Positions 21,409 to 53,461 of a stretch of 64,000 nucleotides of DNA are shown here, piece after piece (within the stretch, counting starts at the first letter, position 1; each line of letters opens with the position of its first letter). The notes beneath the pieces were generated by a model. It did not search any database. It was not told where the DNA came from and worked only from the letters and a program-made list of their open reading frames with translations. Both the position numbers and the translations under genes were made by a program. Location: assembly GCA_015061605.1 (NCBI GenBank), contig SUWH01000007.1:1-64000 (forward strand), read 5' to 3'. Source of the DNA: Lentisphaerota bacterium (lineage in GTDB: Bacteria > Verrucomicrobiota > Lentisphaeria > Victivallales > Victivallaceae).

Positions 21409-22260
21409 GGCGGCAAACGTGCCGCTGCGAGGTGTCGCGCCGCTCCGTTGGTCGTGCTTGATCGATTTTTTATAAATACAAACTTGGTCGCTCCTCCATA
21501 TGGGATCCGACAAGGAGGGCGCAAGCCCGACGAAGAGCCGGAGCAAAAATAATATAATCATCACTACCATACTCAAGGCATGAGTAAGGCGGATGCCGAC
21601 GGAATGCCGCAGAGCGAGGCCTCCGGAAAATCGACTTTACCGCCGAGGGCAAAGCCCGACGAGCGCGAGCATCGCAGACCGCAGGGCGAGAAGCGCAGGG
21701 CAACCGCGGCAAACGTGCCGCCTCGAGATGTCGCGCACTCCCGTTGGTCGTGCTTGATCGGATTTGGTACAAGTCGGGATTCGACGGCGGCGCACCGCGC
21801 CGACGAGCGCGAGCATCGCAGACCGCAGGGCGAGAAGCGCAGGGCAACCGCGGCAAACGTGCCGCTGCGAGGTGTCGCGCACTCCCGTTGGTCGTGCTTG
21901 ATCGGATTTTGTACAAATCGGGATTCGACGGCGGCGCACCGCGCCGACGAGCCGGAGCAAAAATAATATAATCATCACTACCATACTCAAGGCATGAGTA
22001 AGGCGGATGCCGACGGAATGCCGCAGAACGAGGCCTCCGGAAAATCGACTTTACCGCCGAGGGCAAAGCCCGAGCGGCGAGGCGGCTCTCCCGCCGCCGC
22101 AGGGAGATTTTTTGGGCGGCAAACGTGCCGCTCCGAAGTATCGCGCCGCTCCGATGTCGCGGCTTGATCGGATTTGGTACAAATCGGGATTCGACGGCGG
22201 CGCACCGCGCCGACGAGCGCGAGCATCGCAGACCGCAGGGCGAGAAGCGCAGGGCAACCC
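21409..22260. repeat. mosaic block of three reshuffled GC-rich repeat modules
   Basis: Module A (ggcaaacgtgccgc...gtgcttgatcggattt) about 21409, 21707, 21850, 22115; module B (gagcgcgagcatcgcagaccgcagggcgagaagcgcagggcaacc) at 21661, 21805 and about 22213; module C (gccggagcaaaaataatataatcatcactaccatactcaaggcatgagtaaggcgg...) at 21537 and 21951. Confidence 0.9.
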
Positions 22261-22272
22261 GCAGTTAAGTGA

Positions 22273-22376
22273 GCAATCCCATTTTTTGCGGATGCAAAAA
22301 ATACCAAAGCAAAAAGAAAAAGCAACAACAGGCAAATTTATTTGCCAAGCTGTTGCTTGCTTTTTGCGGGGATTGC
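22273..22376. repeat. nested inverted-repeat / multibranched structured element
   Basis: Outer GCAATCCC(22273)/GGGATTGC(22369); hairpin ATTTTTTGC-ggat-GCAAAAAAT (22281-22302); hairpin GCAAAAAG(22309)/CTTTTTGC(22360) with inner AGCAACA/TGTTGCT and GGCAAAT/ATTTGCC. Confidence 0.75.
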
Positions 22377-22406
22377 GTAACGATTCTTGGAAAAAAGGCA
22401 AAAAAA

Positions 22407-22482
22407 TGGCATCTCCAATGGGATTCGAACCCATGTTGCCGGGATGAGAACCCGGTGTCCTAGGCCTCTAGACGATGGAGAC
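22407..22482 (-). tRNA. tRNA-Glu (anticodon CTC), CCA encoded
   Basis: Minus strand GTCTCCATCGTCTAGAGGCCTAGGACACCGGGTTCTCATCCCGGCAACATGGGTTCGAATCCCATTGGAGATGCCA; full cloverleaf, anticodon loop TTCTCAT. Confidence 0.96.
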
Positions 22483-22576
22483 ACGCTACGTGATAAAATA
22501 TACTGCCGCAGTTGGTATTTGTCAAGCGGTTATAAAAAAACTTGTATGGAATATTTTGTAATTTATCATATTTTTC

Positions 22577-25817: not shown

Positions 25818-25921
25818 ACCGGAAATCCTTTCCGGAGCATATTACTGCTCCCGTTATGGGTATGCCGGTGCGGAACGCACACAACAATAAAAGGTGTAAC
25901 AAAAATATTTTTCATTTCTTT

Positions 25922-26003
25922 ATTTCCTACGCCGGCATTACCCGTTTCAGGTTCAAAGGGTTTGATCTCAGCCGTTGTCACCGCGACAACAGCACCCCGT
26001 TGT
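25922..26003 (-). ncRNA. TPP riboswitch (THI element)
   Basis: Minus strand AACAACGGGGTGCTGTTGTCGCGGTGACAACGGCTGAGATCAAACCCTTTGAACCTGAAACGGGTAATGCCGGCGTAGGAAAT; canonical THI-box elements, upstream of thi4-thiE-thiD. Confidence 0.96.
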
Positions 26004-26118
26004 TACAATATGCATAATATAGTGTATCTCAGGCAGAAAGTCAAGTCCGCTTCTGCCGGTATGTACAGGTAAAATTTAAATTTTTTTCACAGTTGTCTCA
26101 TAAAAAACAACGGACGGC

Positions 26119-48370: not shown

Positions 48371-48436
48371 ATGACTTGTAAAGATTTTTATTCTGTCCAT
48401 GATCATGGACAGAAGCTGTACAGCTTCTGTCCATGA
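48371..48436 (+). other. SD-preceded short reading frame (probable native pilin leader, currently out of frame)
   Basis: GAGGT (48360-48364) 6-7 nt before ATG 48371; reads [21 protein letters not shown] and stops at TGA 48434. Deleting one 34-bp unit would read [27 protein letters not shown]. Confidence 0.75.
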
Positions 48437-48458
48437 TCATGGACAGAAGCTGTACAGC
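48391..48458. repeat. two perfect tandem 34-bp palindromic units in a pseudopilin leader
   Basis: (ttctgtccatgatcatggacagaagctgtacagc)x2; palindromes TTCTGTCCATGATCATGGACAGAA (24 bp) and GAAGCTGTACAGCTTC (16 bp). Confidence 0.97.
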
Positions 48459-49163
48459 TTCACGCTGATCGAATTGCTCGTTGTTATCGCCATCATCGCC
48501 ATTCTGGCAGCAATCCTGCTCCCGGCATTGCAGAGCGCCAGAGAGCGGGGAAAAACCACCCAGTGCCTGAATAATTTGCGCCAGCTCGGACACGTAATGC
48601 ATAATTATGCTGAAGCCAACGACGGCTGGGCAACTGACGACACCTGTGGAGAAACCAGCGCCTCAAACTATTACTATTCAAAAACCTCCAAAAAAGCCAA
48701 AGGCCGACTGGGCGATTACATCAAATCCCCGAAGATTGCCGACTCTCTTCCCGCCATCGCGGTCTGCCCGCAAGGCGGACGCGACTGGGAGAAACCGGCA
48801 GGATTCCCCACGGTCAAAACCGGCAGCAATCCGAACTTCAGCTATGGTGCAAATTACTACATAACCAAAGTTGCTCTGAGTTACCGGCAGAAATATTCCA
48901 CAGTGCGTCTCGGCAGCAAAGTCTTTGTTTTCACTGATATCGGCGAAAAACATCCGACCTTTTCCAAAGAGGCAAAAATGATTGGTGCCATGGAAGTCGC
49001 CGGATTTTACCGTTTCAGTTTCCGGCATCCCAAGTACAAATTTTCCAACACGGTGTTTGTTGACGGCCACGCGGAGGGAATCCACTTTGCTTATACATGG
49101 AGCGGAGCCGAGGGGTGGAGCAAAGCCAGTGACACCAGAAATTTGTTCCGGGATAACTATTGA
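48399..49163 (+). CDS. pseudopilin-like protein with prepilin N-terminal domain; start uncertain
   Basis: [70 protein letters not shown] 48399 lies inside the first repeat unit and lacks an SD. Confidence 0.85.
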
Positions 49164-53218: not shown

Positions 53219-53461
53219 ATGACTCATAAAGATGCTTTTTCTGTCCATGGGCATGGACAGAAGCTGTACAGCTTCTGTCCATGGGCATGGACAGAAGCTG
53301 TACAGCTTCACGCTGATCGAATTGCTCGTTGTTATCGCCATCATCGCCATTCTGGCGGCGGTACTGCTCCCGGCGCTGCAACAGGCGCGCGCCCGCGGAC
53401 AGGGGACCCAATGCCTCAACAACATCAAGCAGCTTGGATTTGCAGTGAATCAGTACGCTGA
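53219..53461 (+). other. SD-preceded reading frame (probable native pilin leader, currently out of frame)
   Basis: GGAGG (53208-53212) 6 nt before ATG 53219; reads [38 protein letters not shown]... Deleting one 34-bp unit would read [25 protein letters not shown]. Confidence 0.75.

Follow-up and report, generated by a model that had tools for sequence, protein, structure and literature searches.

A scrambled repeat block beside a Lentisphaeria tRNA-Glu gene is a decayed member of a class of tRNA-tail units widespread in its lineage

The closest described counterparts of the repeats reported here are the 178-bp repeats of the Escherichia coli tyrT/tyrV loci (RtT RNA, RF00391; rttR, tpr). Like the Lentisphaeria units, RtT repeats lie in tandem directly 3' of a tRNA gene and each close with an exact copy of the tRNA 3' end, and a T-arm copy, AAGGTTCGA, is split from AATCCTTCC by a hairpin-rich insert. 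When the tRNA-Tyr gene tyrT was read as a control, exact tail copies (19/19 nt) were found at +159, +337 and +515, each preceded by the T-arm copy and its insert in the layout AAGGTTCGA-(hairpins)-AATCCTTCCCCCACCACCA. The RtT repeats of E. coli MG1655 (1287066-1287328) also hold, upstream of their T-arm copy, the sequence GGAAGGAT; this is the tRNA-Tyr T-stem ATCCTTCC in reverse complement, and it resembles an arm of the trailer element E4, described below, in some Lentisphaeria units.

Short palindromic repeats provide a second point of comparison. Rickettsia palindromic elements are small palindromic repeats in which one repeat may be nested in another, as is the case here; to our knowledge, tRNA tail copies are not a feature of these elements. 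REP/BIME elements comprise the GTAG and CGTC super-families, and the CGTC REPs, among which RPE-4 and RPE-6 have been placed, lack a dedicated transposase (PMC3733652).

The window analysed here is a stretch of 64,000 nucleotides from a Lentisphaeria metagenome-assembled genome (MAG) of 2.56 Mb in 52 contigs. This genome (G000) is 88.7% complete, and the exact array length and the absence of particular enzymes are therefore provisional. A first-pass annotation had described a block at 21409-22260 built from three modules, A, B and C, in the order A-C-B-A-B-A-C-A-B. The block is real and this order on the plus strand is correct, with A corresponding to element E1, B to E3 and C to E2 (Table 1). 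The repeat system extends beyond the block: it starts at the tRNA gene and includes the 147-nt stretch 22260-22406. The periods that had been noted were also recovered: a 144-nt repeat (D1) occurs at 21656 and 21800 with 97% identity, with TRF reporting a period of 144 over 21656-21959, and a 132-nt repeat (D3, 98%) occurs at 21528 and 21942, 414 bp apart. Two further repeats correspond to the A module (D2, 68 nt, four copies) and the B module (D4, 50 nt, three identical copies). The perfect hairpin GCGGCAAACGTGCCGC (16 nt) has four exact copies, at 21410, 21706, 21850 and 22116, against a chance expectation of 0.12 even when up to two mismatches are allowed. The first-pass interpretation was supported in part, but it overlooked both the nature of module B, a tRNA T-arm copy in split form, and the presence of this unit behind many other tRNA genes.

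The tRNA-Glu(CTC) gene is on the minus strand, which places the block downstream of the tRNA 3' end. The neighbouring HD-domain gene was considered as a syntenic anchor and rejected: tRNA-Glu adjoins the HD gene in none of 29 relatives, and the anchor of the array is therefore the tRNA. Elsewhere in the window there are two 34-bp tandem repeats with palindromic units (TTCTGTCCATG..CATGGACAGAAGCTGTACAGC), at 48391-48461 and 53239-53309, which lie approximately 4.8 kb apart and differ in a few central bases.

Table 1. Features of the repeat array and its tRNA anchor, in window coordinates.
Feature	Position	Strand	Basis
E1 (module A) copy 1, three hairpins	21410..21465	+	repeat family and pattern matches
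Half E3 (GGATCCGACAAGGAGGGC..), interrupted by E2	21502..21543	-	sequence
E2 (module C) copy 1, truncated	21544..21655	.	D3, 98% to copy 2; relatives
144-bp tandem duplication of E3-E1	21656..21943	+	D1 97%, TRF
E3 copy 3, fused to truncated E2 at shared hairpin GA-GGGCAAAGCCC-GA	21656..21705	-	D4, 100% over 50 nt; junction read
E1 copy 2	21706..21761	+	repeat family and pattern matches
E3 copy 2, complete T-arm copy	21777..21849	-	pattern match
E1 copy 3	21850..21905	+	repeat family and pattern matches
Half E3 (GGATTCGAC..GAGCCGGAGC), interrupted by E2	21921..21958	-	sequence; junction as in relative G050 (locus L022)
E2 copy 2, nearly complete	21959..22113	.	D3; at most 93% to relatives' copies; alignment of ends
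E1 copy 4	22116..22171	+	repeat family and pattern matches
E3 (module B) copy nearest tRNA, T-arm copy GGTTGCC-(hairpins)-GTCGAATCC, then decayed tail GATTTGTACCAAATC	22187..22259	-	pattern match; tail comparison
E4 tRNA trailer: outer stem GTGAGCAATCCC/GGGATTGCG around a long hairpin with T-runs on both strands (putative bidirectional terminator) and a second hairpin	22260..22406	-	DNA fold; 24 units
tRNA-Glu (anticodon CTC), array anchor, 3' end towards block	22407..22482	-	ARAGORN and Rfam tRNA
Sigma-70-like promoter (predicted) of tRNA gene, TTGACA-17-TATATT	22497..22525	-	consensus scan, 11/12

Read on the tRNA strand, E3 is a copy of a tRNA T-arm with the general form GGTT-(two hairpins)-GTCGANTCC; in the window it reproduces the tRNA-Glu T-arm GGTTCGAATCC, opened in the T-loop. 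The insert follows T55 in the Lentisphaeria units, whereas in E. coli it lies between A58 and A59. A search for this split T-arm, a feature shared with RtT, returned 168 matches in 78 genomes of the family compared with 4 for a reversed-pattern control, the clear cases falling in two genera (g1 and g13). A looser pattern applied across the class recovered mostly genuine tRNA genes starting GGTTG, and did not contribute to any count outside the family.

Behind other tRNA genes of this genome, E3 continues directly into the acceptor strand and CCA of the tRNA concerned. Such own tails are exact for Thr(CGT), His, Arg(CCG), Asp, Glu(TTC; three units), Cys and Leu(TAA), while Ser(TGA), with four mismatches, and Tyr, which is partial, have inexact ones. 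When 20-nt tails were sought within 700 nt downstream of each tRNA gene, allowing up to four mismatches, 9 of the 37 testable genes were followed by their own tail, compared with 7/1438 when foreign tails were used and no case with the reverse complement. One of the nine cases is an adjacent second tRNA-Asn gene, leaving eight true copies. Direct repeats ending in the tRNA's own 3' end, as in RtT, are thus found at 8-9 of 37 tRNA genes and in most of 24 units collected from 17 genomes, and are decayed in the window block. In these 24 units the T-arm copy starts 114-154 nt past the true CCA, and the 22-nt tail copy is exact in 13 and has at most one mismatch in 18. In the window, the acceptor copy after E3 is replaced by GATTTGTACCAAATC, with 10 mismatches in 22 positions, and the array is therefore a degenerate member of the class, the T-arm copy, E4 and the other loci being what links it to the tail units. 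In the literature searched, coverage of which was incomplete, we found no description of such tRNA-tail units in Lentisphaeria.

The tails follow species-specific changes in their tRNAs. For Thr(CGT), GATTCCGATAATTGG, GATTCCGATCATTGG and GAATCCGGTCATTGG are each present in both the gene and the tail of one genome. The unit at this gene is orthologous in two genera; its stems are kept and its sequences differ, with the tails matching the tRNA of each species. An alignment of six Thr sequences gave weak covariation (double changes in 5 of 50 pairs, RNAalifold covariation term +2.53). Gene conversion between the direct repeats would be the most likely means of keeping a tail in step with its tRNA. 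Tandem units at a single locus are nearly identical, with periods of approximately 171-220 bp at several loci (for example G034:C8, G036:C35 and G031:C51), and the number of units behind tRNA-Gln(CTG) varies, from four in G031 to one in G054 and none in G000. Identity between units together with varying number fits unequal recombination, or slippage, plus homogenisation. The earlier proposal of recent amplification or concerted evolution is supported, near-identical tandem units being present both here and in relatives that differ in copy number. At four loci (L084, L087, L069 and L092), a MITE-like repeat with ends resembling GGTTCATCGACGGTTTGTGACA / TGTCACAAACCGTCGATGAACC was observed downstream of tRNA genes.

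Copies that span the T-loop to the CCA resemble the attR copies left by phages or islands that use the tRNA T-loop and 3' end as an attachment site, and direct repeats flank approximately 200 bp, as would fit units that are scars of such integrative elements. Against this, one and the same internal unit accompanies the own tails of at least 10 different tRNA species, orthologues of the Thr unit occur in two genera, and the T-arm copy is always hairpin-split. Just three tyrosine recombinases were found in the genome, none of them within approximately 5 kb of a unit. An origin of the tails as attR remnants is accordingly very unlikely.

Comparison with RtT itself shows the same plan on a different scale, since the E. 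coli repeats occupy one tRNA locus and the Lentisphaeria units are found at many tRNA species. At gathering and permissive thresholds Rfam recognised only the tRNA and a TPP riboswitch, and the RF00391 model matched neither the window at its gathering score nor the block in a permissive search to E = 5, while matching the E. coli control three times. The units can therefore not be filed in the RtT family by its model, and by analogy of layout we would file them as an expanded, larger-scale variant of RtT-like repeats. The TPP riboswitch (25907-26009, minus strand) is an ordinary one upstream of thi genes.

Between the tRNA and the T-arm copy lies the trailer element E4, a three-stem palindrome with the same architecture in 24 units from the 17 genomes. 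In the window, E4 folds as DNA far better than shuffled sequences (z = -4.65), and the E3 there folds no better than its shuffles (z about 0). From its sequence, the long hairpin with flanking T-runs resembles a bidirectional terminator, and E4 would most likely end transcription of the tRNA and block convergent transcription. The outer stem matched the reverse complement of the tRNA T-stem in 9/24 comparisons with the unit's own tRNA and in 42/472 with foreign tRNAs, a difference that is confounded by relatedness; a match of outer stem to T-stem is suggestive on these figures.

We examined whether these structures are better read as DNA or as RNA. Wobble pairs account for 2.2% (sense) and 2.7% (antisense) of pairs in E4 helices, compared with 9.5% for the tRNAs that this genome encodes, and strand-specific wobble extensions of E4 numbered 12 and 21 against 1013 shared Watson-Crick pairs. 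This rarity suggests that the structures act as DNA palindromes, in the form of a cruciform or single-strand hairpin, rather than as RNA, although young, homogenised repeats could also have a low wobble content. Compensatory changes are present, as in the third E1 hairpin (three pairs, 7 both-side cells compared with 0/500 shuffles), but wobble is low on both strands rather than RNA-typical on one. Of 88 E3 sequences, 76 fold better on the strand antisense to the tRNA; the hairpins on that strand contain GA/GA internal loops (52/88 in the first hairpin, and 54 in the second compared with 6 in shuffles) and are mostly closed by GNA or GNNA loops. We read these hairpin features as reflecting selection on, or generation of, DNA hairpins.

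The antisense bias of E3 could also be taken as a sign that the units encode structured non-coding RNAs, either an extended 3' trailer on the tRNA precursor or an RNA that is antisense to the tRNA 3' end, pairs with it and terminates at E4. The tail copies would then be exact antisense, and annotation treats the E. coli counterpart as an RNA (RtT/RttR). However, the wobble content of only 2-3% on either strand is far from that of the tRNAs, the putative E4 terminator precedes E3 on the tRNA strand, the tandem arrays have no obvious per-unit promoter on the other strand, and Rfam gave no above-chance match to the block. The first-pass suggestion that the block might be an RNA is thus not favoured by the wobble counts, and we regard an RNA role as unlikely.

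Modules A and C are dispersed repeats. A whole-genome search with the block gave 45 partial matches on many contigs, and the modules are therefore not private to it. E1 is approximately 56 bp long with three hairpins and is scattered through the genome, singly or in tandem. The named records with a match to the exact E1 pattern were Lentisphaerae/Lentisphaeria MAGs, and the pattern was absent from the viral contigs searched. One locus (L012, G000:C17:17884-18424) is a head-to-tail array of approximately nine E1 copies with a 56-bp period and unrelated sequence on either side. Further intergenic palindromes (CCGCCGTCAGGCGG, CCTGTCGTGCCGGAGGCGCGACAAAAGG and GTTGCTTCGCAAC, at L008, L010 and L011) form an extra repeat layer around E1. 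E2, of approximately 150 bp, is confined to the block in the window genome and recurs in relatives as many near-identical, species-specific copies. In the window, E2 copy 1 is joined to E3 at the hairpin common to both, and the junction of E2 within E3 is identical behind the tRNA-Glu(CTC) of the relative G050; the insertion is therefore most simply older than the split between the two species.

Like REP/BIME elements, E1 and E2 are palindromic, multi-copy and often clustered, and being short and dispersed they could be taken for ordinary repeats of this type, mobilised by a RAYT transposase and near tRNA genes by chance. They are larger than REPs, with three or more hairpins each, and where a REP has GTAG or CGTC beside a single imperfect hairpin of 20-40 bp, E1 spans approximately 56 bp with three hairpins and E2 approximately 150 bp; inspection by eye revealed no conserved unpaired tag at the ends of either. 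No Y1_Tnp/RAYT gene was found in this 88.7% complete genome. Such genes occur in 29 of the 78 family genomes with no relation to unit number, do not track the E1/E2 repeats, and are missing from the unit-rich carriers G033, G034, G035 and G039. Moreover, the units carry tRNA-specific tails, so their clustering at tRNA genes is not due to chance. RAYT-mobilised repeats that came to lie there fortuitously are thus highly improbable. The earlier proposal of a non-autonomous element array is supported for E1 and E2 in so far as they are dispersed with near-identical, species-specific copies; no mobiliser was found to go with them, the presence of Y1_Tnp/RAYT not following that of the repeats, and neither a RAYT nor an integrase explains the units.

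Taken together, the window array is a decayed, repeat-invaded member of a class of tRNA-tail units found widely in this lineage of gut bacteria. On balance it is probable that the block represents the 3' flanking region of tRNA-Glu(CUC) in which a tail unit of RtT-like layout, acting as DNA, was entered by E1 and E2 and then duplicated as a composite. As at many tRNA genes of the lineage, the tail unit consists of the E4 palindrome, with its putative bidirectional terminator, followed by the hairpin-split E3, intact units ending in the exact acceptor strand and CCA of their own tRNA. The hairpin repeats E1 and E2 are found within E3 copies or between them, where they may have arrived as mobile elements. 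Recombination or slippage between direct repeats and shared hairpins would then have duplicated the composite, giving rise to the 144-bp and 414-bp periods.

A broader and rather unlikely proposal is that a DNA-level system keeps a hairpin-split, non-functional second tRNA 3' end downstream of many tRNA genes, either as a decoy for integrases that target T-loops or as a template for repair where integrating elements have damaged a tRNA 3' end, with E. coli tyrT as a small example. The tyrT repeats have been known from one locus; the recurrence of their layout behind many different tRNA genes of a distant phylum, with tails that match each tRNA, makes this a class open to study, in which roles of the units as DNA hairpin, terminator, decoy or repair template become directly testable. 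For annotators, apparent scrambled junk beside Lentisphaeria tRNA genes resolves into ordered units.
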